Source: Amphibalanus amphitrite
Taxonomy: Eukaryota > Arthropoda > Thecostraca > Balanomorpha > Balanidae
Direction: 5' to 3'
Length of the DNA: 64,000 nucleotides
Assembly (NCBI RefSeq): GCF_019059575.1
Contig: NW_024881713.1
Span: forward strand, 372,001 to 436,000
Part shown: one piece after another, positions 5,282 to 64,000 of the stretch
Position numbering within the stretch: the stretch's first letter is position 1
Layout: each line of letters starts with the position of its first letter
Position numbers and translations under genes: made by a program
The notes under the pieces: generated by a model
Told to the model about the DNA's origin: nothing
Database searches by the model: none
The model's input: only the letters and a program-made list of their open reading frames with translations

Positions 5282-6629
5282 TGTTACGGGCCAAGTGCGA
5301 AGGCTAGTCCGTTTGCGAACGGACTAGTCCATTCGCGAATGGACTAGGCCGTTTGCGAATGGCGGTCCGTTTGCAAACGGACTAGTCCGTTTGCGAATGG
5401 CCGGCCATTCGCGAATGGCCTAGGCCGTTTGCGAACGGACGGGTTTGTGGCGTTGCTCTTAGCCGCCGGAAGCATGGATCCTCGGATTGGGGTACGATTC
5501 CGAATGAATGGGGGACCGCTGGTCGATGCAGGGGCGTCGCCGACGGGGGGGGGGGTCGGAGGGGTCCGGACCCCCCCCCCCCCCACACACACACACATTC
5601 TTGAAAATATGCCGGTCCGACGCCCCCCCCCCCCCCCTCCCCCCCACACACACTTTTGGCCACGAAAATCGATCAAGAATAAAATAAAATATTTTAAAAA
5701 CGATTTTGGTGCATTCTCAAAATAAAATTGTCTAAATCCGAGGAGTTTTCAGTATTTGGTGGGGATTACTTTGACTGACCGTCCGACCAGATCCCCTAGT
5801 CGAAAATCCGTGGCGACGCCACTGCGTCTATATGTTTAGTTTGTTCTCCGGAACAGATCTGCGAGCTGGCGCAACTCTGGGTTAAGGTCTCCACACACCT
5901 GGTCCATTCGGGATGCGACTTTCCGCTGAACCCTGCACAACGCGGAATTTATAGCAACGTGTTGCCGCTGGCCAGGCTTCGGCCACCGATCTGGATCTGG
6001 GGAGGTCAAATTTCCCCGTGACCTTCGAACAGCGGAGAGTCGCGTGGTGTGCGGAGACCATAAGTACCGTGCTCCGGGCTCCCCGCTGATGACCCGACCT
6101 GACCTTGGTCGTATGGTAAATGTATCAAGGCTGGAGTGACATGCATCAGTAGATGTAATAAAGGGGTGGCCTGCAATAATAAATAAGTGTCGCACTGGAT
6201 CAGTGTGTTCTTGAGTTGAGTTTGTTTCACTTCACCATTACATTGCAAGGCTCATGAAATTCATCGTCAGACAATGTTTCCAAGGGGTGAACGCAAGGGT
6301 GGGGTGAGGTAAAGAAGAGGCGACCTCAGCATGACTGTGTAAGCATTTTCCGGTTGAGTTACCAATACTTTGCAAGCATCATTTCACACGGGACTTTGCA
6401 CATGCCAAGTTGACTTGCCAAGTTGACGTCACTTTGCTGGATATTTCGCACTTGGCCTGACTTCGCACTTGGACTGGGAGCATAAACGCCCGTCCATTCG
6501 CAAACGGCCTAGGCCAACTGCAATAACGCACATGGACTAGTCCATTCGCAAACGGCCTAGTCCAAGTGCGTTATCGCACTTGGACTAGGCCATTCGCGAA
6601 TGGACTAGCCTTCGCACTTGGCCCGCAAC
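5282..6629. mobile_element. TIR element with terminal lattices of palindromes
   Basis: The two ends match as inverted repeats: 26 bp inward from 5285 pair with the right end near 6625 with one mismatch (core GGGCCAAGTGCGAAGGCTAG). Inside each end is an array in which 14-bp palindromes (CCATTCGCGAATGG, CCGTTTGCGAACGG) alternate with 10-bp CTAG-centred palindromes (GGACTAGTCC, GGCCTAGGCC), about 24 bp per pair, at about 5306-5442 and 6486-6606. The middle holds a 296-bp hAT-like insertion and no coding capacity. The target-site duplication is unclear, possibly ATAG. Confidence 0.7.
5529..5824. mobile_element. hAT-like MITE, short
   Basis: It begins CAGGGGCGTCGCC and ends GGCGACGCCACTG, the same terminal sequence as the 3.4-kb hAT-like element at 22838-26280. 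Long G and C homopolymers lie inside. No 8-bp target duplication is obvious, so one end may be decayed. Confidence 0.55.
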
Positions 6630-10585: not shown

Positions 10586-10729
10586 CCTCTACCTTGCTCC
10601 GGCGATCGGCGCATTTTTAGCGTCACGTACTTATATACGTACGCACTATGGACGTTTCCGACGGCCCGTAGTCGGGATTTAGTCTTTTGAAATCACTTTT
10701 CTACTGATGTTCAAAACGTGAATAATTCA

Positions 10730-12664
10730 CCCTCGCCGGACGTATTGGTTTTCTACAGGTTCTGCGATACCTGAGCGAGCGTCATTTCAGCGAACGACAA
10801 CTGAGCGAAACATTTTCAGCGATTATCAATTTAAGCGATTGACTTTTACAGCGATTGTCAAGTCGGCGAATTTAATCACAGCGATTATCAACTTTAGCGA
10901 GGACCAGAATCAGCGAAACCAGATTGAGCGAATATATGTTGTTCAATGAGAGACCAATTGAGCGAGTACAGTTACAGCGAAACCGAACTCGACGAAAGTC
11001 AATCATTTGCTACTTTTCGGAAATGCTTGCCATTGGAATGCCCGTTCGGTATGTGTCATGGTTCAAGCTGCGCACGGGGGAATCCAGTCTATGTTTCAGG
11101 GACCTCACCCTAATATCTGGAATTTCGTAAAGGTGCTTGGGGCAAGAACAAATTTTACAACACGGGGAACTGGTCCAAATTCAAGCGGGGGAAATTCGCG
11201 AAAAAACAGCATAAGCAATATGAATATCTGAACAAACGTTTGGTCACCATTATAAGCAAAGAGCAGGGGGTGAAATTAATTAAACCATTGGAATTTTTGA
11301 GAAATGTAGCATTAAATCTGGAGCTCAATGTCTGACCTTTGAACATGACATCCGCCATCCAGTTCCGGATAACCATGAGAAATTCCGGAAACATTCGTAC
11401 GTATACGCTCGCAAAAGTAAAACAAAAAATACACCGTTACAGAATGATGAAGTGTTTCGCTGAACTGACAGTCGCTCAAATTGTAGTCGACGAAATAGAT
11501 GTCGCTGAAACATAGTTTTCGCTAAAATTGATAATCGCTTTGTTTGATAATCGCTGAACTTGATAATCGCTGAATTGCCATTCGCTGAAAATGGTTCGCT
11601 CAAATGACGTTCGCTCAAATGACACTCGCTAAAGTCGCTCGCACCGTTTTCTACATACGTGCCGGCCGAGGGGGGGGGCGGGTACGACCGGTACGACCCC
11701 CTCGCCGTTTCGCCACTTGCACTGGTGGAGCTAGCGCGTCGCGGAAAAACGAGCGTGTGCGCCGTTACGAGACGCAGATATTGATATCCAATTTTAAGGT
11801 CCTAGGTCAACCGGTGACCTCTGAGGTCAGGTCAAGTGCCCCAAAGAACGGTTCCATTTTTGGTTAATAACGTCGCAAAAAAACGGCTGCAGAGCCGCGA
11901 TTTTGGCAGCATCGTGCTCGCCTCGCTCAGGCGCGTCGAATGATGCACCTTTTGTTTGGATGAGGTCAACTTACGGTGTTGACCTCAGGTCACGGTCAGG
12001 TCAGCGCCCTTGGGTCACGAAATTGGTCGAAGTAGGTCATGTCGCATATCATTCGATTTGACAGGTCTTCCTGAGTCCATTGGTGGCTTTCTCGACTGGC
12101 TAGCTCAATTAGATCGGGAGTTATTGACGAAAAATTAATATGAACCTAGTGACGTCATAAATGACGTCACACAAGGTCAACATTGCAAAAGTGACGCATG
12201 TAGCCTTGCAAGGAGTTCATCAAATCTCGATTCTGTGTGCTTGAGATAGTTGGAGATCGTTCCCGACGGCAAATAGCAGTTTTCATTTTTCCCCATTGAC
12301 TTATAATGGTGAGGTCACGAAAATGACATGAACTCATATGACCTTAACGAAAAGTCCGAGATAAACAAGTTGTGAGACTCGTAATGGATATTAGATCCTG
12401 CAAGCTTCATTTCCATGTGAAAGCTCCTCTGGCAGTGAGGGCGTTGCGAAGCTGCGACATCTGAAGACCGTGCAGAGGTTCACTTATGACGTCATAGGTC
12501 AGTGACCTGACCTGACCCGAAAATGCAGCTGTTGTCAAAAGATCCGGCTTGAATCAAAGATCAGGTATGCTAAGTTTCAGCTCTCTATCGCCAGCTGTTC
12601 GGATCTATCGCGAAAAAAAAAAAACTATCGGGGGCGGCACCCCCCCTCCTCGGCCGATGAGGTT
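10730..12664 (+). mobile_element. TTAA-type element split by a younger insertion
   Basis: The left end CCCTCGCCGG plus GTATTGGTTTTCTACA (10730-10757) and the body from 11647 onward together match, in reverse, the intact element at 52442-53467. The flank has TTCA instead of TTAA, and the right end near 12664 is decayed. The body includes AGGTCA arrays, a TGACGTCA-like site and a G/C hairpin at about 12630-12650. An 889-bp element interrupts it at 10758-11646. Confidence 0.7.
10758..11646. mobile_element. Fold-back element with AGCGA motif arrays, 9-bp duplication
   Basis: A 9-bp direct repeat TTTTCTACA (10749-10757 and 11647-11655) brackets this 889-bp insertion, and removing it plus one copy restores the host element's sequence as seen at 52442-53467. 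The left arm (about 10758-10990) carries AGCGA roughly every 16 bp; the right arm (about 11455-11646) carries the complement TCGCT with the same spacing. The outermost 38 bp are imperfect inverted repeats sharing GTCATTT-AGCGAACG. The middle has no convincing frame. A 9-bp duplication suggests a Mutator-like mechanism, which is an inference. Confidence 0.75.
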
Positions 12665-30200: not shown

Positions 30201-33200
30201 AACGCGACAGGGTGGTAACATATGCCCCCCCCCCACTGGGGCGAAGGTTAAAAGGCGACCTCCGGGAGCTTAACATTGAGTTGGATAGTTCCTAAATAGC
30301 TGCTACCCCCCGGGTGGTCCACACTGAGACAGTCTACAGTGTCGAGACGATCTCCGACACAATCAGCTCTCGTTGAGCAGCTCAGTTTCTGATGTTGTCA
30401 AGCCGGCCGGTGACCGATCGGCTCTCTGTCCGTTGAGCAGCCCAGTCTCTAGTGTTGCCGCCCCGGCCGGTGACTGATCTGAGCAGTCTATAGTGTTGTC
30501 GTCCCGGCCGCCGACCGATCAGGTGTTTCAGTCCAATGTCGCCCCGGCCTCCGACAACGATCGGTAGCGTCGGTAACGAGTCGGTGGCATGGCCGCCGAC
30601 GACCGTCGATCACGACAACACCGGATTAGCGGGGGTGCTGTCGGAGCCCGCGCAGCGGCAGAGGGGGAGGGGAGAGCCGCCGGGGTGTAGTGGGGAGCGA
30701 ACCGGGCGACTCGCCGCTGGCAGGTGGTTCGATAGATAGTCTGGGGCCCGACCTGTGGGACACTGCAACACGTATATTTATAGTAAATCCATGAATGGCA
30801 AATGCGTAGTGTGACACTGTGCAGCCTGATATTTTGATGCAGGGACAATGCGGTTACGTACCACTGAAGTTCTAGGATACACGTGATCGTCTGGAGCGCA
30901 GGCGAATTATGTACCAGAGTTCTGAGTACCTGAGCATATGAGTTCGTCAGTTCACTGACCCATCATTTTCACTCGTGCTGCATGAAAGTGTACCTATGTA
31001 TGGCTAGCCCATCGACTGTATGTACATACCTAGACCAGGGCCAAGAACACCTACTCTGTTTGCAAGTACTACAAGCCATTCCTGAACCAGCGTAGTATTG
31101 ATTTTCGTGCTCAGTAGCAGTATACCTGTTTGACTTCGCGCAAACCTGACCTGGATACGGAACAGGGCTCTGCTCCTCAGCCGTTAGCATGTCGTTACGA
31201 AAGCGAAGCGGCATACCACTATCGTCAGATGGGGGCTTACGGCTGCAGTGTCATGCATGTCACAGTTTATTGTATCTTTACGATTGTCGGGCTCACTTCA
31301 ATTCACTGAAAACTAAAATGATTCCGGGGGGGGGGGTGATATTAGGAGAATGGTCTAAAACGAAACCCCAATTATTCCCGTAATATACTTTAAGTAGCAC
31401 CTTTTTGGCCTTAGATACCCCCAATATCCCAACATTATTACCCTAATATGCCTGTTGGATGGCTAAGTGGAATCAAAATGATTATCTGGTTATGCCTCCA
31501 TTATTCTTACGAAATGCCTAGTGTATTCCCCCTGATTCTCCTCTATGCCCCTTTGATGCCCCCTAGCATAGTTCGGATGCTCCGTTTAAACCCGATCTAT
31601 GCTCCTTTGATGCTATCTATATACCCCATTGATGCTCCTTTGATGCTTGCTCTAAACCCCATTGATGCTCCTTTGATGCTCTCTATATACCCCATTGATG
31701 CTCCTTTGATGCTCTCTACATACCCCATTGATGCTCTCTATATACCCCATTGATGCTGATTTGATGCTCTCTATACACCACATTGATGATCCTTTGATGC
31801 TCTCTATGTATATACCCCATTGATGCTTCGTTCCGCAGTGGCGGATCAAGGGATGGGCTCGCGGGGTCATGCTATTCCTCGTGAGATGCCCATGAGATAC
31901 CTAGCGCACTGATTTCTTTACCCACACAAGGGTAAGAGACGCCATTTATGTAACCACCTTCGCCCTTCCTCTGAATTTCCTGGATCCGCCCATGTCATCG
32001 ACGCTCAGCCACACCAACAGCAACCACGATACGCTTGTATGTATGAGAAAAACGTACTGTATTGATTGGAAAGACAACTGCCTCTGCATTCATTTAAAAA
32101 TCTCAGCTTCCTAGTTGCCAAGAGACATTCAATTTGCACTATCCATATTAAACATACGTCACGCACACGCCTCATATAACAAATGCCATATCACATGTTG
32201 AGATCCAGGCTGTAAAAAAACACATGACACACGAGAAGCGCCGCTGGCTCTTCTACGATGACCGTTCCCTCTTACGAAGGAGTCGCAAAACAACCGGTGC
32301 CCCTTCAAATGGCGTGGTTTTTCCCACCTTTGCTACACAACGAAAGTTGAGCGTGTGGCTCCTACAAGTTCCCCCTCCCTGACCTCAAGAAAGTCCGACA
32401 ACGTAGCCCAGGGGCTGACACAGGATGTCAACAGGCCCGCCCATGCCGCTTGTGACCGTGACCCCTTTCCCTGTGGGGCGGGCCATCACGTCCGTCTCCA
32501 TCATCTCCGTCCATCACTCCGTCTCCACTCCGCCCCTGGGCTTACCTCACTGCGCGGGCACACTTTGCTGTCAGCACCGACAGATTTTTCAGCGCGTCCG
32601 CCGTCGCTGTTGACTCTGCAGGCAGCCCCATGATGTCGTGGACGATAAACCACATCGTGGAGCGCGATGCACGGGACACTTTCTGGTTGAAGACGTAGTG
32701 GGCAGCCCCGAAGAGAAGGAGTGCCTCTTCAAGGCACTGGGCGCTGGTCACCACTGTTTCTTCGACCACGATATCGAAACATTTCATCGTCATATGAGTT
32801 CCTGCTAAGGATGGTACTCACCCTCAATAAGGCTCAATTCCAGCCTAAAAATGGCACCACTCGCAGTCGCAACCACACAGCACCCAACACCGCTATTCAC
32901 TGATCACCGGAAATGGCGGAGAAAAATGGCGGACCTTTGGCGCGTTCCTGATGCTTCCAACGAAGAATCATTGAGGAATAATATGGTTCTACTCGGGTGA
33001 TATCAAGAGTATTTTGAAAGAATCAGGCAAAGGAAGCATAACAGAAGAATATGAAAGCATCTCAAGGGAATATGAGCCTCCCTGTGATTCCGGCAAGATA
33101 CCCTCTGGGCAATGAAAGGGTATATTGCAAGAATAGATAGAGAATCATAAAGGCATAACTATCAGCGACTGGGGTATCAACAGCATCTTATGCGCACGGA

Positions 33201-42058: not shown

Positions 42059-42430
42059 CAAAAGATCGTAAGAGAAACGATCGTATGGAAAATGATAGTA
42101 GGAGAATGATCGTTAGATAAATATCGTATATTGTTAAAGATCGCACGACAAAAGATCGCAAACAAAAGATCGTAAAGCAATGGATCGTATGAAAAAGCTC
42201 GTAGGAAAATGATCGTAAGATGAAGATCGTATGTCGCAAAAGATCGTACGACCAAAGATCGTAAGCAAAAGATCGTAAAGCAATGGATCGTATGAAAAAG
42301 ATCGTAGGAAAATGATGGTAAGATAAAGATCGCATGTTGTAAAAGAACGTACGACAAAGGATCGTAACGTTAAGTTCGTAAAGTAAATAATCGTATAGAA
42401 TAGTGTTGTACAGGTAAATGATTGTAGCAT
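42059..42430 (+). repeat. GATCGTA spaced-motif array with a 100-bp higher-order period
   Basis: GATCGTA or close variants recur every 14-18 bp for about 370 bp, all in one orientation. Blocks containing AAGCAATGGATCGTATG then AGGAAAATGATCGTAAG repeat at about 100-bp spacing three to four times. Long minus-strand Leu/Ile/Phe/Ser frames here are artefacts. Confidence 0.8.
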
Positions 42431-47420: not shown

Positions 47421-47626
47421 TCACTCTATTTGTATTTTATGTAATTGACGGAACGCATAGTAATTTTATCTCGCGCAAAAACACGCTGATGGAAAATTTG
47501 ATGTGCAGATTTGGAGAGAATAAAGACAGTCGGTTTTTGAAGAAAGTTAACCGTCTTTTATATTCTATTTATATTTTATATTACAAGCTATTTCGGCATT
47601 TTTTCCTTGTATATACGGGTGGTAAA

Positions 47627-48343
47627 ATGGCTCCAAAGAAACGTAAAGCTAACGATGACGAGTATATCGATGCGATCGATGATTATTCCGGCAAGGAAGA
47701 CGTCGTACGGTGGCTGAACCGAACTGAAATACTGTGCGAGCTGCAGGGCAGTGATATTATGAGGATCCTGCCTCTGAAGTTGAAAGGTGATGCATTCACT
47801 GTTTATGCACAGTTGCCAGCGAGAGATCGAACGTCGTACGAGTCGGTGAAGGACGCACTGCAGTCTGCGTTTGCGCCAGATCCCCTTGGGGCGTATGAAG
47901 AGTTTGTGGCTAGGAAGCTCAGACCAGGTGAAGCAGTGGATGTTTTCCTGGCAGACCTCCGGCGACTGTCCACACTTTTTGGAGGTGTTTCAGATCGGAC
48001 CCTTCTGTGCTCTTTTATCTCTGGTCTTCCACTATACGTGCGTGAAGCAATCGGCGCCAGCTATCGAGTGCAGGACCTGAGCATCGAGAGCGCCTTGAGC
48101 AGTGCCCGACGGGCCGTGAAGAATGACCCGGCGATGGCAGCCGCGGCGGCAGGAGAGCGCATCACGCGGGCACAGAGAAACAATCACGAAACGACGGCTG
48201 AGCCATCTAGAGCTGCGAGACGTGTGACAAGACGGTGCTGGGTGTGCGGCGAACCCAACCATTTGGCGTCTCGGTGCCCCGTCCGTTCGGGAAACGGCGT
48301 GGGAGATGGTGTCTCAGCGCCGGCGTCATCTCCCGCGCAGTGA
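47627..48343 (+). CDS. gag: Gag-like protein with CCHC zinc knuckle
   Basis: The preferred start is the ATG at 47627 (MAPKKRKANDDEY, good AAAATGG context), although the frame is open from an ATG at 47489. The protein has the retrotransposon Gag core (KLKGDAFTVYAQLP, YEEFVARKLRPGEAVDVFLADLRRL as two pieces) and a single knuckle CWVCGEPNHLASRC near the C terminus that would bind the RNA genome. A PKKRK cluster sits at the very N terminus. The end overlaps pol by about 108 bp in a different frame, so pol would be made by a -1 shift in 48235-48343. Confidence 0.85.
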   Translation: MAPKKRKANDDEYIDAIDDYSGKEDVVRWLNRTEILCELQGSDIMRILPLKLKGDAFTVYAQLPARDRTSYESVKDALQSAFAPDPLGAYEEFVARKLRPGEAVDVFLADLRRLSTLFGGVSDRTLLCSFISGLPLYVREAIGASYRVQDLSIESALSSARRAVKNDPAMAAAAAGERITRAQRNNHETTAEPSRAARRVTRRCWVCGEPNHLASRCPVRSGNGVGDGVSAPASSPAQ

Positions 48344-49356
48344 CGGGTGGCGCTCTGCCGGTCGTAGACCTGACTGTTGACGGGCACAGGTGCCGAGCTC
48401 TGGTGGATTCTGGCTGCACAGAGAACCTGGTTTACAAGTCTGTGTGTGAGGCGTGGCGGCCTCAGAGAACAGCGGTAACGTCGATGAGTGGAGACCCGTT
48501 TTTCTCCAGTGGGGTTGGAACTGTGCAGCTGAGAACGTGTTCCGGGCAGTCGGCGAATGTTTCTGTGCTGGTTCTTGATGACAAACCGATGGGTGTCGAG
48601 ATGGTACTCGGAGTGCCCGCCATCTCGGCTCTGGGTGGCGTGATGATTGCATCCCCCTCTGATGTCAAGTTCTGTGGGAAGCCGACTACGCCGCCCACTC
48701 CACCAGGCCTTGAAGATGAATTGGTGGTGGACACGCCCGATTTCTCAGTACGGTTTGATGCCGACCAACGAGCGTGGACGATGTCGTGGAAGTGGGAAGA
48801 TGGAGCTGAGCCAGCCAGTCTATCCAGCAGTGTGCCTGAGTATGCCATGTCAGCAGAAGCCAGGCAGGAATTTGAAGCCGAACTTCAGACTTGGATAGAC
48901 AATGGATGGCTAATTCCATACGATCAGTCCGTCTATGGCCCTCCCCGTGGACTGTTGCCGCTGATGGCTGTGGAGCAGGGCAGTAAGTGCAAGGTGCGAC
49001 CCTGTCTGGACTACCGTCAGTTGAACAGCCACGTACCTGCGCACACAGCAGAGGCCGACGTCTGCACAGACACGCTGCGGAGGTGGCGCCGCCACGGTAA
49101 GAATCTCGCCGTGGTGGATTTGAAGCGAGCTTACCTGCAGATTCGCACAGACCAGCGCCTTTGGCCATTTCAGACCGTGATTGTCGGCGGACGGCGTTAT
49201 GCGTTGACGAGGGTCGAGTTCGGATTGAACGTGGCCCCGCTGATGATGAAGAAGGTGGTGCAAGCGGTTCTCAGCCAAGACGCCGATGCGGAGCGCGCCA
49301 CAATACCGTATGTGGACGACCTGTGTGTCGATGAGGACATTGTTACGGCCGATCGT
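48235..49356 (+). pseudogene. pol: Pol part 1: protease and reverse transcriptase, broken
   Basis: The frame is -1 relative to gag. It contains the aspartic protease motif ALVDSGCTENLVYK (near 48400), then reverse transcriptase with RPCLDYRQLNSH (near 48995), AVVDLKRAYLQIRTD (near 49110) and the catalytic IPYVDDLCVD (near 49305). It then reads into an inverted copy of its own upstream sequence and meets a stop at about 49590. The rest of pol continues in another frame from 49635. Confidence 0.85.
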
Positions 49357-49634
49357 ATGGAATTAGCCATCCATTGTCTATCCAAGTCTGAAGTTCGGCT
49401 TCAAATTCCTGCCTGGCTTCTGCTGACATGGCATACTCAGGCACACTGCTGGATAGACTGGCTGGCTCAGCTCCATCTTCCCACTTCCACGACATCGTCC
49501 ACGCTCGTTGGTCGGCATCAAACCGTACTGAGAAATCGGGCGTGTCCACCACCAATTCATCTTCAAGGCCTGGTGGAGTGGGCGGCGTAGTCGGCTTCCC
49601 ACAGAACTTGACATCAGAGGGGGATGCAATCATC
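49241..49634. repeat. 394-bp duplication with inverted insert inside pol
   Basis: Bases 49240-49356 recur directly at 49634-49750 (117 bp). Bases 49351-49634 are the exact reverse complement of 48642-48925 (coordinates always sum to 98276, no indels seen). At the left junction six bases, GATCGT, are shared by both segments; at the right only C is shared. The net insertion of 394 bp shifts the pol frame by one. Confidence 0.9.
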
Positions 49635-51439
49635 TGATGATGAAGAAGGTGGTGCAAGCGGTTCTCAGCCAAGACGCCGATGCGGAGCGCGCCACAATAC
49701 CGTATGTGGACGACCTGTGTGTCGATGAGGACATTGTTACGGCCGATCGTGTAGTGGAGCACTTCTCTAAGTACGGCCTGGAGTGCAAGCCTCCAGAGAG
49801 AGTCCAGGACGGAGCACGGCTGCTGGGCCTGTGGGTTGGTGTCGCAGGAGACGGTGATCTCCACTGGACTCGGGATAACGCAGTCGGTGCCCCTCCTGAC
49901 GTCATGACACGCCGCGCTGTGTTCTCCTGGTGCGGACGTCTGGTGGCGCACATGCCAGTGTGCGGCTGGCTGAGGCCGGCAGCGGCCTGGCTGAAACGTC
50001 GAGTCAATGCTGTGACTCACCACTGGGACGATGTTACCGACGATCCAGAGCTGCGCGAGCAGATGATGTACGTGGCTGAGCGGATGGTGAATGATGATCC
50101 AGCGCGAGGTCACTGGCACGTCAGTGGAGACAGTGCTGTCGTGTGGACGGACGCCTCCTCTGTGGCGGCGGGAATCGCTCTGGAGACGCAAGATGGAAAC
50201 ATCATCGAAGACGGATGCTGGCTTCGAAAGGATGAGACGACTCACATAAATATGGCAGAGCTCGATGCCGCCCTGCGAGGCATCAATCTAGCTATCGCCT
50301 GGGGCATGCGAGTCATCGAGCTGAAAACGGACTCTGCCACTGTTCATCGCTGGCTCGACGATGCATTAAGTAGCCGAGCACGTCTCCGCACTAAGGCCCA
50401 CGGGAAAATGCTGATACGGCGCCGAGTCGACATAGTCAAGCAGTTGGTGGCCGAATTCAACCTGCATCTGACAGTGACTCTGGTGAAGTCGGCGGACAAC
50501 AAAGCGGACTGCCTCAGCCGGGTTCCCGCTCAGTGGCTGCGCGGTCCACTGAACGGAGAGTCCGCTGGGGCGTGTGGTGCTGCGGTGAATGCTGAGTGCA
50601 CCAGCGGTGATGAAGATAGCTCCAGCACGAGCGGTGATGGCGGCGATGGCGTCGAGGCAGATGGGACCGAGGACGAAGAAAGAGGACGGCGAGCAGCGGT
50701 TCGCGAGGTGCACACCCGCGCAGGCCATCCTGGAGTACGGAGAACGCTGTTCTTCGCTCGGCGCGAGATTTCTCCGAACATTACGAGGAGAGAGGCGCGT
50801 GCTGTCGTGTCCCACTGTGACGCATGCAGGTCTATCGACCCAGCACCAGTTAAGTGGAAGCCTGGGAAGCTGGAGGTGAACGAGTCCTGGACTAGGCTGG
50901 CGATTGACGTCACGCACCACCAGCGCAGTCTGTACCTGTCAGTGGTCGACTGCGGTCCTTCGAGGTTCAGTTTGTGGAGATTGCTTCGAAGGGCAGATTC
51001 AGCGCACGTCATTGAAGAGCTGCATCGAATTTTCAATGAACGTGGAGCTCCAGAAGAGATCCTGGCGGATAATGATACCGCCTTTCGCAGTCGGGCGTTT
51101 GCAGTGTTCGCGGCAAAGTGGAAAATTCGGCTGAGGTTCCGCGCCGTCTACCGCCCAAGTGGAAATGGTGTGGTAGAGAGGAATCATCGGACCGTGAAGG
51201 TCATAGCCGCAAGAACAGGGTGCACCGTTGGCGATGCCGTGCATCTTTACAACGTAACACCTCAGGACGGACAGAGCTCGGCTACGACACCAGCCGGACA
51301 GATCTACCGGTACTCGGTCAGGGACAGCGTGAGGACAGTCACTGGCACTGGTGGTGATCCATCGGACGGCAGCGGTCCAGAGGGCACGGACAGCGCCTAC
51401 ACTGTCGGGGACGCCGTGTGGGTCCGACAGCCTGGATAA
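49635..51439 (+). pseudogene. pol: Pol part 2: RT end, RNase H and integrase
   Basis: After the duplicated YVDD block come the RT thumb/connection and RNase H (WTDASSVAAGIAL, MAELDAAL, KTDSATVHRWL, SADNKADCLSR give its D-E-D-D residues). The integrase follows, with an HHCC finger (HTRAGH ... CDAC, near 50710-50830) and a DDE core: D in LAIDVTHH, D in LADNDTAF, E in GNGVVERNH. An acidic Gly/Ser linker lies between RNase H and integrase. The frame stops at 51437-51439 right after VGDAVWVRQPG, so the C-terminal tail is missing. Confidence 0.85.
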
Positions 51440-57635: not shown

Positions 57636-58680
57636 TTACACACTTATATGATAGGCCAAGACACAAGACGTTCGTTCAGGGAGCTCGTTCAAGGTCATGA
57701 AAAACTCCGAATCTCTGATAGTGATGGACTCTGATATCTTTCTGTCTGGGTAGTCCAGAGCCTGGTGCAGTATCTCCACCGTAAGTGGTAGATCCGCCCC
57801 TCTGTCTAATGACAGCTGACCGTGAGCCACTCTAAAGTGGTCTCCGAGGGGGGTGTCGGGAGTCGCACTCAGCATGTTCCTCACATGCTCGTTAAAACGC
57901 AGTCTGACAGGACGTTTGCTCTCTCCCACATACACCGCCGGCTGTTCCTTGCAGAGAGTACACGTGATCCTGTAAACCACATTTTTGGTCGTGCATCTCC
58001 CTGCTAAGCCACACTTACAGCAGTAGCACCCGCGACTGGCACCCGGACAGAGAGGAGGTGAGAAGGCTGACCTGACTAGCGCGTTTTTCAGTTTGTTTTT
58101 GTTTCGCCAAGCAAGTCGGATGTTCATTCCCGACCTGCGCACCACACCTTTCACCCGGCTCAATAATTTCTCGTCCACATATGGTAGAGTCAAGAAGCCA
58201 TCTACATTCTCTTTTGTAGAACCCCGTTTAGTGCCCCCAGCTTTCGCTTCCCTTAGAGTTCTCCTAAGCACGTTTTCAGGGTACCCGTTGCTAGAAAGGA
58301 GATTCCACATTTTTGTCACGCTCTTTTCTTCCCTGTCCTTATTCGACGATACTGCTATGGCCCTTCTAAACTGGTTCCTAGCCATGCTAATTTTGGTCGA
58401 GGACGGATGAGCTGAAGAGAAATGAAGCACTATGCCCGAGTTGGTAGGCTTAATGTACAGTTCAGTGGCCAGAAATGTGATGTCATTGTCAGAAACGACA
58501 GAGACCAGGGTATCTAGGTATGGGAGCCCCGAGTCCTGCTTCGTGAACTCCATCGTGAATTTTACTGTAGGATGAAGTGAGTTCAAATACGCTAGGAAAT
58601 CTTTCAGGGCTTCCTCCCCGTGGGTCCAGATTCCCCCGTAATCATCAATGTATCGCAAGAGCAGGTCGGGCTTATGTAGC
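57636..58680 (-). pseudogene. Penelope-like RT catalytic end plus GIY-YIG endonuclease
   Basis: The frame is open from upstream of RYIDDYGGIW (RT motif C, near 58650) without an ATG, because it is the shifted continuation of the frame that ends at 58672. RT thumb sequence with GLPYLDTLVSV follows, then a Cys-rich stretch (CYCCKCGLAGRC) and the nuclease core: VVYRITCTLCK, VYVGESKRPVRLRFNEH. These are the metal-dependent GIY-YIG landmarks, with Tyr, Arg and Glu-region residues in place. It ends at about 57636. Known elements use this enzyme for target nicking. Confidence 0.85.
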
Positions 58681-61600
58681 CTCCCTGTTTTGTAAAGCCA
58701 GTCTTTCCAGCCTGTCTAGGAAGAGGATAGCAACGGGAGGGGCGCAAGGGTTACCCATCGCGATTCCCACTTTCTGTTTGTAGAAATCTTTGTCAAAGCA
58801 AAAGACGTTATTCCTCAGACACTGGTCCAGGAGTGTGCATACGTCATCGGGTGTCAAACCGAACATGTTGATATCAGTAACATGCTCCTGCAACTTTTCC
58901 CGAACAGCCTCCACTGCCTCATCTAAAGGAATGGAACCATACAGGTTTACTACGTCTATGCTGAAAAATATGATGTCACTTGGCATCGTGTGTTGTCGCT
59001 GGTAGTCAGCGAGATGGTCCAAAAAATGTTTGGTATCCCGTAGATGAGTAGGCACATATCTCAGCAATTGGCTCAAAACACGTTCAACGAGACAAGATGT
59101 TTTCTCTGTTGGGCCTCCACAAGCTGAAATCACGGGACGAAGAGGGACCCCCGGTTTATGATCTTTGGGAAGCCCGTAAAACAAGGGGATACGGCTATGG
59201 TTAGGTGTTAGGTCATGAATGACATTGTCATCAAGCTTGTTACTGGTAACCTGCTTTAGGGTACGTTTAGTCAAGGCCTCTACCCTGGGAACTGGATTTC
59301 TTTTCAGTTGTTCGTAGTTGGATCGATCTCCTAAAATGTTGTTAGCTTTCTCAACATAGTCAGTTTTGTCAAGTATCACAAAACCCTTACATTTATCGCT
59401 AGGTTTTAAGATAATGGCATCATCTTTTTTTAGCGTTCTCAAAGCCGACATCTCATCCTGGGTGACATTGACATGATCTGTTTTGTGGTGCTTATAGGTA
59501 CGGAGTAAATCATCTTTAAGCTGTTTCAGGTTTCTCTCTGCCTGATTATTTGTCGGGGGAGGAATCCGTTTGTCCAAGTCGGGAAAACGGAAGGTCAAGT
59601 TTGGTTCGTCATTTTGTGACCGATGCGTACCGGTTGTCGCTGACCCCTGGGCGCCTGCAGAAGCTGACGGTGCTCGCTGGGTGTCGGATGGAGCTCCTGG
59701 TGCCTGTTGTGCATCTGTAGAGACCGATTGCGTCCGCTGGATAGCACCGGTGTCGACTGAAGGTCCCGGTGCCTCTTGGGCCCCGGCTGGAGCTGACAGT
59801 GCCTGCTGGAGGGCGCCGACACCGACTGGAGCTGACGGCGTACGCTGGGACGCGACTGGGGCTGACGGTGTCTGCTGGACCCCGACTCGAACTGGCAGTG
59901 TCCTCTGGAGGGCGCTGGAACCGACTGGAGCCGGAGCTGACGGTGTCTGCTGGAGGGCGCCGGTACCGACTCGAACTGACGGTGTCCTCTGGAGGGCGCT
60001 GGAACCGACTGGAGCCGGAGCTGACGGTGTCTTCTGAAGGACGCCGGCACCGACTGGGGCTGACGGTGTCCTCTGGAGGGCGCTGGAACCGACTGGAGCC
60101 GGAGCTGACGGTGTCTTCTGAAGGACGCCGGCACCGACTGGGGCTGACGGTGTCCTCTGGAGGGCGCTGGAACCGACTGGAGCTGTAGCTGACGGTGTCT
60201 GCTGGAGGGCGCCGGCACCGACCTGAGCTGACGGTGTCCTCTGGAGGGCGCTGGAACCGACTGGAGCCGGAGCTGACGGTGTCTGCTGGAGGGCGCCGGT
60301 ACCGACTCGAACTGACGGTGTCCTCTGGAGGGCGCTGGAACCGACTGGAGCCGGAGCTGACGGTGTCTTCTGAAGGACGCCGGCACCGACTGGGGCTGAC
60401 GGTGTCCTCTGGAGGGCGCTGGAACCGACTGGAGCTGTAGCTGACGGTGTCTGCTGGAGGGCGCCGGCACCGACCTGAGCTGACGGTGTCCTCTGGAGGG
60501 CGCCGGAACCAACTGGAGCTGGAGCTGACGGTGTCTGCTGGAGGGCGCCGGTACCGACTCGAACTGACGGTGTCCTCTGGAGGGCGCTGGAACCGACTGG
60601 AGCCGGAGCTGACGGTGTCTTCTGAAGGACGCCGGCACCGACTGGGGCTGACGGTGTCCTCTGGAGGGCGCTGGAACCGACTGGAGCTGTAGCTGACGGT
60701 GTCTGCTGGAGGGCGCCGGCACCGACTAGAGCTGACGGTGTCCTCTGGAGGGCGCCGGAACCAACTGGAGCTGGAGCTGACGGTGTCTGCTGGAGGGCGC
60801 CGGTACCGACTCGAACTGACGGTGTCCTCTGGAGGGCGCTGGAACCGACTGGAGCCGGAGCTGACGGTGTCTTCTGAAGGACGCCGGCACCGACTGGGGC
60901 TGACGGTGTCCTCTGGAGGGCGCTGGAACCGACTGGAGCTGTAGCTGACGGTGTCTGCTGGAGGGCGCCGGCACCGACCTGAGCTGACGGTGTCCTCTGG
61001 AGGGCGCTGGAACCGACTGGAGCCGGAGCTGACGGTGTCTGCTGGAGGGCGCCGGTACCGACTCGAACTGACGGTGTCCTCTGGAGGGCGCTGGAACCGA
61101 CTGGAGCCGGAGCTGACGGTGTCTTCTGAAGGACGCCGGCACCGACTGGGGCTGACGGTGTCCTCTGGAGGGCGCTGGAACCGACTGGAGCCGGAGCTGA
61201 CGGTGTCTGCTGGAGGGCGCCGGCACCGACCTGAGCTGACGGTGTCCTCTGGAGGGCGCCGGAACCAACTGGAGCTGGAGCTGACGGTGTCTGCTGGAGG
61301 GCGCCGGTACCGACTCGAACTGACGGTGTCCTCTGGAGGGCGCTGGAACCGACTGGAGCCGGAGCTGACGGTGTCTTCTGAAGGACGCCGGCACCGACTG
61401 GGGCTGACGGTGTCCTCTGGAGGGCGCTGGAACCAACTGGAGCTGTAGCTGACGGTGTCTGCTGGAGGGCGCCGGCACCGACTAGAGCTGACGGTGTCCT
61501 CTGGAGGGCGCCGGAACCAACTGGAGCTGGAGCTGACGGTGTCTGCTGGAGGGCGCCGGTACCGACTCGAACAGACGGTGTCCTCTGGAGGGCGCTGGAA

Positions 61601-63045
61601 CCGACTGGAGCCGGAGCTGACGGTGTCTTCTGAAGGACGCCGGCACCGACTGGGGCTGACGGTGTCATCTGGAGGGCGATGGAACCGACTGGAGCTGTAG
61701 CTGACGGTGTCTGCTGGAGGGCGCCGGCACCGACCTGAGCTGACGGTGTCCTCTGGAGGGCGCCGGAACCAACTGGAGCTGGAGCTGACGGTGTCTGCTG
61801 GAGGGCGCCGGTACCGACTCGAACTGACGGTGTCCTCTGGAGGGCGCTGGAACCGACTGGAGCCGGAGCTGACGGTGTCTTCTGAAGGACGCCGGCACCG
61901 ACTGGGGCTGACGGTGTCCTCTGGAGGGCGCTGGAACCGACTGGAGCCGGAGCTGACGGTGTCTGCTGGAGGGCGCCGGTACCGACTCGAACTGACGGTG
62001 TCCTCTGGAGGGCGCTGGAACCGACTGGAGCCGGAGCTGACAGTGTCTTCTGAAGGACGCCGGCACCGACTGGGGCTGACGGTGTCCTCTGAAGGGCGCT
62101 GGAAACGACTGGAGCTGTAGCTGACGGTGTCTGCTGGAGGGCGCCGGCACCGACATGAGCTGACGGTGTCCTCTGGAGGGCGCCGGAACCAACTGGAGCT
62201 GTAGCTGACGGTGTCTGCTGGAGGGCGCCGGCACCAACTGGAGCTGACGGTGTCCTCTGGAGGGCGCTGGAACCAACTGGAGCTGGAGCTGACGTTGTCT
62301 GCTGGAGGGCGCCGGCACCGACTAGAGCTGACGGTGCTCCCTGAGCCACAACTGGAGCTGACGGTAGTCTGGCTCGTGCTTGTCTAACTATCTCATCCTT
62401 CCATCTCTTACCGTAAGCAAATCTTTCAATAGCCTTCTCAACATCAACCAGAATCTTCTTGGTGACATCCTGCGTTATGGCAAAGTTGGGTCCCTTGGCC
62501 AGCAGCTTCATGCCTGATTCACATATTGGGCGAGACGACAAGTTGTTCACCCGAGGAGCTGTGTCTTGGGTTTCAACGGTTGTCATCAACACGAGTTTGT
62601 CATGAGCCTCTCGCTTGAGACGGTCATATTTGTTCATGAGACGAGGTCTGTTCTCCGCGATGGTCAGGTCAAACACTCGTACGCATGTGCGGCATACCCA
62701 AATAAACTTGTCCGCGTCAAAAAATCCTCGAATACGATCGAATAGCCTATCTCTTTCACGTTTTAGAAAAGCCCTTCGTCGGAAAGCTTCGGAAATGGCT
62801 TCGTTGAGTAGAGATTTCATAAACTTTTCACATGATTGCTGTACTGTGCTGTTCTTCTCAAACACTGTATTAACTGGTCTCATGCTATCGCTGATGAATC
62901 TTGGAGTAACACCCGACTGTCTGCATGCTACAAGGAATTCAATTTGTAGCTCCGTTTTCGCTAACTTTTCTGGGTTCTTTAAAGTTTGGACGAGCACTGG
63001 CCTGCGGTCAACAATGGGCTCGATAGTATTAATGTTGAAACCCAA
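58672..63045 (-). pseudogene. Penelope-like N-terminal region, repeat domain and RT core
   Basis: The 1457-codon frame has no ATG at its upstream end, which falls at the inversion junction, so the native N terminus is missing. About 210 residues of helical sequence (RRRAFLKRERDRLFDRI, FIWVCRTCVRVFDL) precede a 28-unit Ala/Pro/Gln/Ser repeat domain. After it comes the RT: KPSDKCKGFVILDKTDY, LFYGLPKDHKPG, RPVISACGG, FFSIDVVNLYGSIP (motif A) and GIAMGNPCAPPVAILF (motif B). The frame stops at 58672-58674, just before motif C. The long repeat insert between N terminus and RT is unusual for the family. Confidence 0.85.
59920..62271 (-). repeat. Coding higher-order repeat: 28 units of 84 bp
   Basis: The unit SSALQRTPSAPVGAG plus VLQKTPSAPAPVG (28 aa, 84 bp; itself two 14-aa halves) recurs exactly 28 times with no length change (2352 bp). 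Three variants, A (SAPVGAGVLQK), B (SVRVGTGALQQ) and C (SAQVGAGALQQ), follow each other as a 252-bp ABC super-unit for most of the array. Degenerate units flank both sides. Confidence 0.95.
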
Positions 63046-64000
63046 GACACAGCTCCTCGGGTGAACAACTTGTCGTCTCGCCCAATATGTGAATCAGGCA
63101 TGAAGCTGCTGGCCAAGGGACCCAACTTTGCCATAACGCAGGATGTCACCAAGAAGATTCTGGTTGATGTTGAGAAGGCTATTGAAAGATTTGCTTACGG
63201 TAAGAGATGGAAGGATGAGATAGTTAGACAAGCACGAGCCAGACTACCGTCAGCTCCAGTTGTGGCTCAGGGAGCACCGTCAGCTCTAGTCGGTGCCGGC
63301 GCCCTCCAGCAGACAACGTCAGCTCCAGCTCCAGTTGGTTCCAGCGCCCTCCAGAGGACACCGTCAGCTCCAGTTGGTGCCGGCGCCCTCCAGCAGACAC
63401 CGTCAGTTACAGCTCCAGTTGGTTCCGGCGCCCTCCAGAGGACACCGTCAGCTCAGGTCGGTGCCGGCGCCCTCCAGCAGACACCGTCAGCTACAGCTCC
63501 AGTCGTTTCCAGCGCCCTTCAGAGGACACCGTCAGCCCCAGTCGGTGCCGGCGTCCTTCAGAAGACACCGTCAGCTCCGGCTCCAGTCGGTTCCAGCGCC
63601 CTCCAGAGGACACCGTCAGTTCGAGTCGGTACCGGCGCCCTCCAGCAGACACCGTCAGCTCCAGCTCCAGTTGGTTCCGGCGCCCTCCAGAGGACACCGT
63701 CAGCTCAGGTCGGTGCCGGCGCCCTCCAGCAGACACCGTCAACTACAGCTCCAGTCGGTTCCAGCGCCCTCCAGAGGACACCGTCAGCCCCAGTCGGTGC
63801 CGGCGTCCTTCAGAAGACACCGTCAGCTCCGGCTCCAGTCGGTTCCAGCGCCCTCCAGAGGACACTGCCAGTTCGAGTTGGGGTCCAGCAGACACCGTCA
63901 GCCCCAGTCGCGTCCCAGCGTACGCCGTCAGCTCCAGTCGGTGTCGGCGCCCTCCAGCAGGCACTGTCAGCTCCAGCCGGGGCCCAAGAGGCACCGGGAC
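63034..64000 (+). mobile_element. Second Penelope-like copy, head-to-head and 5'-truncated
   Basis: From 63034 the plus strand repeats the minus-strand element starting at 62577 (VETQDTAPRVNNLSSRPICE onward), in frame and open to the window end. Its repeat array has only 6 units (63340-63843) against 28, then continues into the same post-array sequence (LPVRVGVQQ, GALQQALSAPAGAQ). A unique 456-bp segment (62578-63033) separates the two arms. Confidence 0.9.

Follow-up and report, generated by a model that had tools for sequence, protein, structure and literature searches.

Foldback elements with tandem repeats in their arms are known from sea urchins, where the TU elements are of this kind. 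Among described systems those closest to the element considered here are Muta1 of Aedes aegypti and Tm1 of root-knot nematodes (Meloidogyne). The inverted ends of Muta1 measure 145 bp and comprise, besides a tip of 10 bp, nine repeats of 12 bp separated by 3–4-bp spacers; its duplications are of 8–9 bp and its authors called it a type 2 Foldback element. Its counterpart Muta5 has nine 15-bp repeats (PMC5225508). Tm1 has 13–15-bp repeats, 9-bp duplications and asymmetric tips, and a FLYWCH domain at the N-terminus of the transposase is a Phantom/Muta feature (PMC3169594). For Phantom the zinc finger is given as none, FLYWCH or SWIM (PMC6446971). In 2013 binding of transposase to the repeats of Foldback and Phantom was called untested (PMC3688188), and a 2026 survey of arthropod Mutator-like elements (MULEs) suggested that binding might take place at long ends (PMC13359780).

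The element is in a stretch of 64,000 nts of Amphibalanus amphitrite DNA (contig NW_024881713.1, positions 372,001 to 436,000), the whole of which is termed the window. Its features, in window coordinates and with families A and D as described below, are:

10749–10757: left target-site duplication, TTTTCTACA, occurring once in L085, the relative without the element
10758–11646: whole element, 889 bp, a non-autonomous Mutator-like foldback of family A, with ends common to other copies
10758–10997, plus strand: left arm, its tip followed by 12 exact AGCGA cores (10774–10980) and in-phase degenerate units
11061–11332, plus strand: remnant of a MULE transposase gene, C-terminal part (tblastn, tblastx)
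11450–11646, minus strand: right arm, 12 exact TCGCT cores (11457–11639) and the tip CTCGCACCG
11647–11655: right target-site duplication, TTTTCTACA
42060–42430, ends not fixed, plus strand: lone family-D arm, a GACAAAA tip and then GATCGTA at intervals of about 15 bp, matching the inverted arms of L083

The element starts with GGTTCTGCG at 10758 and finishes with CTCGCACCG at 11646, and the 9-mers directly outside it are identical. The host site is a dispersed repeat, a paralogous copy of which, L085, lacks the element and has TTTTCTACA once. With the window flanks joined and set against L085, 838/938 columns aligned through the joint, just 32 bp being from the left flank and the remainder from the right; matches at L050, L074 and L076 likewise cross the joint. 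From the window alone a 10-bp duplication, GTTTTCTACA, could be read. It was dropped because its final G is element sequence in other copies. This is an insertion of cut-and-paste type with a 9-bp duplication. The first-pass annotation had described a fold-back transposon, inserted inside a repeat and defined to the base by a 9-bp duplication, and all of this holds: the coordinates are exact, the arms are inverted, and other copies with 9-bp duplications have the same ends.

Long inverted ends of short repeats, the type 2 Foldback feature, are what the arms present. They are complementary piecewise as inverted repeats (70–95%). Start-to-start steps between the AGCGA cores of the left arm are 15, 15, 14, 16, 16, 30, 16, 16, 15, 34 and 15, and between the TCGCT cores of the right arm 15, 30, 17, 16, 16, 16, 15, 14, 15, 15 and 9. 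When the outer 245 bases on the left and 200 on the right were shuffled 20,000 times by single bases, the mean number of motifs was 0.28 (maximum 4) and 0.16 (maximum 3) respectively. The dozen or so per arm that had been claimed, with a count no higher than in shuffled sequence named as fatal to the claim, is far above the shuffles; the accompanying figure of 11 bp for the spacers needs widening, as most are 9–12 bp. The wide steps (30, 34) contain degenerate or lost units, which the copy consensus shows as in-phase GGCGA, ATCGA and GTCGA, and the right tip has an additional core 8 bp from the end.

Other repeats and frames are present in the window. A further stretch with inverted arms, GGGCCAAGTGCGAAGG...CTTCGCACTTGGCCC, occupies 5290–6625; its arms consist of ~20-bp palindromic units, and no flanking duplication above 7/9 letters was seen in the range searched. 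An array of TTGATGCTCTCTATATACCCCA-like units is at 31599–31828 (TRF periods 22, 33, 55 and 88). LTR-type retroelement pieces at 47489–51439 have three open frames, in which RNase H and integrase are found as well as a zinc knuckle, protease and reverse transcriptase (below Pfam cut-offs). A 340-codon frame at 57636–58658 has no Pfam match. A 1457-codon open frame on the minus strand (58672–63045) contains an 84-bp coding minisatellite in 29 copies, and just upstream of it, at 63275–63865, is an inverted copy of the minisatellite array.

The A. amphitrite assembly was searched in its 807,550,619 bases and 2644 contigs. Window 10700–11700 has at least 150 matches there (40 of 712 candidates were scored) and those listed mostly start or stop at the element ends. 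The 16-base right tip is found exactly at 210 places and its reversed control at 0. These copies constitute family A. Ends were surveyed in 51 loci (L001–L030, L061–L080 and L086), and 32 of the 41 with two ends have an exact 9-bp duplication, so that the copies with shared ends and 9-bp duplications, without which the reading as a transposon was to have been given up, do exist. The nine lacking an exact duplication are L006, L008, L012, L016, L017, L029, L071, L075 and L080; in L075 and L080 the 9-mers agree after a one-base shift. Three of the loci surveyed duplicate others (L061 = L010, L067 = L018, L068 = L014), and L012/L016 and L015/L019, with common flanking 9-mers, probably represent, in each pair, a single insertion present on two haplotypes. 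When the five doubles are left out, the proportion with exact duplications is 28/36. [A nested ~1.18 kb insertion is present in a family-A arm at L002, between two TTAA and with the ends CCCGCGCGGGGC / GCCCCGCGCGGG.] An alignment of 23 copies was drawn from the first 30 loci, of which four without an end, L002 with its insert and the doubles L016 and L019 were left out. Its majority sequence is 1019 bp, from which 19 of the 23 copies differ by 1.1–2.4%, and L010, L014 and L018 by ~6%. The window copy is 130 bp shorter than this consensus and differs from it by 8.3%, and so is a member of another family-A subfamily.

Family A descends from a FLYWCH-bearing MULE, since its loci L086, L010 and L081 carry coding pieces of one. 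L086 is a 1369-bp element with family-A ends, the duplication CTGAACTAC on both sides, and 12 AGCGA and 12 TCGCT (a 13th TCGCT of the locus is outside the element). It encodes the first 125 transposase residues with the FLYWCH zinc finger (Pfam E 1.7e-9); beyond an internal deletion there follows, out of frame with this part, coding sequence for the last 66 residues, the MULE transposase tail. A further middle part of the transposase is retained in L010 (L061 being the same place). The transposase in L081 is near-complete but decayed, interrupted by stops and breaks of the frame, and adjoins a family-A right arm; no recognisable left arm is present at that locus, and L082 has a single arm only. 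The parts in L010/L061 and L081 are homologous to the transposase of a sibling family, B. With the 5′ part of L081 as query, its first 600 bases were matched at C369 (= L081), C76, C151 (= L086) and C3, and part of the remainder at C117; many places match just a repeat at query 607–704. In the family-A loci that were read (of C76, the parts L062 and L085) no intact transposase was found, only broken copies. The gene-bearing members that were read are relics. L086 is a sister copy of the window element, its family-A arms surrounding FLYWCH and MULE-tail coding.

In the interior of the copy consensus, tblastx against MULE loci of the same genome gives a best E of 7e-24, and a nucleotide search gives nothing at 1e-5. 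In the window copy itself (L001) the remnant at ~11061–11332 is detected by tblastn with sibling transposases (best E 5e-7). The coding content of L086 together with this remnant leads to classification of the window element as a non-autonomous, internally deleted Mutator-like foldback. The 9-bp duplications (32/41 two-ended loci) are within the 8–10 bp of MULEs, and the N-terminal FLYWCH of the Phantom/Muta type is present in L086 and, at E 8.4e-10, in L044 of family B. That the window element is a MULE deletion derivative is close to certain.

Search of the assembly with PF10551 gave at least 111 matches (150 of 204 candidates were scored). Families B and C among them have arms of family-A design with the cores CTAGT and AGCTAGT. 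The loci of family B are L037–L041, L043, L044, L046, L047 and L050 (a single arm being seen in L037 and L041) and those of family C are L058, L059 and L084. A 476-residue open frame in L044 has, with its FLYWCH, MULE PF10551 at E 1.4e-15. An exact 9-mer duplication was found in 4 of the 8 family-B loci examined; in L038 and L039, which have the same flanks and are perhaps one insertion, 8/9 letters agree; for L043 and L046 a script detected no duplication. In the single family-C locus read the duplication is 8/9 letters. Family D (GATCGTA), an abundant one with arms of this design too, is represented by an inverted pair of arms at L083 and, in the window, by the lone arm at ~42060–42430. Its tip pattern has 338 assembly matches, overlapping ones counted, with 0 for the control, and some facing tips among the 100 places listed are 9–12 kb apart. 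Comparison by eye of MULE places with the at least 100 listed D tips linked no transposase to it. Its assignment as a MULE was considered from L083 and rejected: the D element there adjoins a MULE piece without surrounding it, and L055, with the same transposase piece, is without such an array. Other MULEs, L031, L033 and L060, have a C-terminal SWIM zinc finger (below cut-off in L060) and no spaced array of family-A kind within ~1.5 kb. L052, with FLYWCH and MULE domains, and L048, L053, L054 and L057 are likewise without a spaced array, either as the flanks are too short or as the array is not universal.

The geometry near the tips is common to the four families. The first core of family A is at 17 on both arms (on the right, apart from the extra core at 8). 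CTAG starts at 18–19 in families B and C and hence their unit begins at ~17. In family D, the exact ends of which are unsure, the first core is at 15–17. From the first core the steps are 15, 15, 14 on both arms in A (window copy and L086), B (L040), C (L084) and D (L083), as measured on one or two loci per family with the A right arm taken to start at its core at 17. For the window's lone D arm they are 15, 29 and 31, as if units were lost. When all 125 triples of steps 13 to 17 were counted for exact 5-mers in 363,219 bases of fetched sequence, 15,15,14 and its mirror image had 122 matches each, against 112 for 15,14,15; the counts for 15,15,14 and 15,14,15 are mainly of family A (85 AGCGA of the 122), and B, C and D cores are also found under 15,15,14. 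The mean pitch, 14.8–15.8 bp, is near one and a half DNA turns. The cores have changed through the array and the tip register has been kept. Of the N-terminal 125 transposase residues, 46 are identical between A and B, 52 between A and C and 63 between B and C. Among these three families B and C have both the most similar N-termini and the most similar cores, which with three families is no more than a hint. Units in A and in C seem to be homologous (AGCGAACGTCATTTG, AGCTAGTGACATTTG), and for this reason the tip register may be inherited.

With the tip geometry common to families whose cores are otherwise, docking of the transposase is favoured as the role of the arrays and is somewhat more likely than not. 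The earlier suggestion of binding sites for a transposase or host protein is strengthened by a tip spacing common to four families with different cores. The FLYWCH domain would dock on the repeated cores, and the first four sites, ~17, 32, 47 and 61 bp from each end, would hold a multimer in fixed register. Such a multimer would bring both ends together as the working complex. Inner sites may add affinity or specificity, as was argued for Galileo (PMC3688188). Core letters are family-specific (AGCGA; CTAGT, AGCTAGT, GATCGTA) with the near-tip register kept, and the window copy would move, or have moved, only with transposase supplied in trans. The whole explanation, a deletion derivative of a FLYWCH-MULE with cores that dock the transposase and with movement in trans, is the best one and is likely to be right. 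A stronger proposal is offered tentatively: the ends of FLYWCH-MULEs may follow a fixed geometric code of ~17 bp and then 15, 15, 14, in which the letters are replaced along with the zinc finger, the steps being the imprint of a rigid multimer and the core letters acting as lock-and-key. If true, the core letters would keep sister families from moving each other.

Core conservation was set aside as a main argument because it is clear in the 23 copies and weak in a set of 36 that includes older ones. In the former, mismatches are 21/3100 at the core phase and 25 to 78 in other phases. In the latter they are 117/4496 against 117 to 187 elsewhere, the distinct variants being 70 against 66 to 85, and without CpG sites cores have 72/2626 and spacers 343/8954. 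Between left and right arms, 51/55 core positions and 66/111 spacer positions are identical in family A, and 32/35 and 54/73 in family B, a comparison biased toward the cores as their positions were picked by motif. Conservation among copies is weak support for function.

That weakness in the 36 copies would be expected if the arrays were minisatellites, generated by slippage or unequal exchange and with no binding role, the common register being ancestral. The likeness of A and C units also suits this, as does higher-order expansion of inner parts, with a 95-bp period in family D and a 64-bp one in family C. However, the cores differ while tip distance and 15,15,14 are kept, even with as little as 46/125 identity between the A and B N-termini, and by slippage alone the steps should be equal, whereas all four families have 14 as the third. 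Origin as minisatellites without binding is unlikely, though it keeps an appreciable share of the probability. Arrays of short motifs are often bound by host factors. AGCGA could on this general ground be bound by a host protein, a transcriptional or silencing factor, instead of the transposase, but the same architecture with different cores would need a different host factor each time, and FLYWCH-type sequence accompanies the arms in A and B (Pfam) and C (alignment only); a host protein as the ligand is improbable. Elements of the Galileo/P superfamily have duplications of 7–8 bp. Membership of this or another superfamily with long repeat-built ends can be dismissed almost completely: the general foldback look is alike (PMC4079207, PMC3688188), but the duplications here are 9 bp, FLYWCH and MULE coding is between family-A arms (L086, L010), which refutes it for L086, and in place of a P-type transposase the L086 coding piece gave no match to a THAP domain.

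Galileo of Drosophila likewise has long, internally repeated ends, in which binding of the THAP domain to several sites has been demonstrated, but its transposase is P-type and the sites are far apart, ~70, 570 and 710 bp from the end (PMC3688188). Tetris of Drosophila virilis is a foldback with tandem repeats in its arms and 8–10-bp duplications; these repeats are of 220 bp and its transposase is unknown (PMC4079207). Muta1 and Muta5 are nearer, sharing a FLYWCH and DDE transposase, 8–9-bp duplications, subterminal repeats at 15–16-bp pitch and many non-autonomous derivatives. Muta1 differs in its 12-bp units, where in family A mainly a 5-bp core is kept, in its 10-bp imperfect palindromic tip and in an intact transposase that works in yeast (PMC5225508). 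With Tm1 there are in common 9-bp duplications, asymmetric tips, a Phantom-type FLYWCH transposase and copies that are mostly MITE-like; the differences are in the unit sequence, a pitch of mostly 14 bp, a first unit ~10 bp from the end (by motif lengths) and the number of copies, of which 39 were recognised in M. incognita, compared with 210 exact tips for family A (PMC3169594). The kind of element is already known. Muta1 (PMC5225508) and Tm1 (PMC3169594) share its plan, and the statement in the first-pass annotation that no described family had such a design was mistaken. In a search confined to the available literature, no description was found of family A or of tips that keep one geometry while the cores change, and it is this geometry, common to families with other cores, that may be new. 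A single genome that harbours four families with a common tip geometry and three or more kinds of core amounts to a natural experiment and, since FLYWCH-type sequences accompany A, B and C, both core specificity and register are directly testable.
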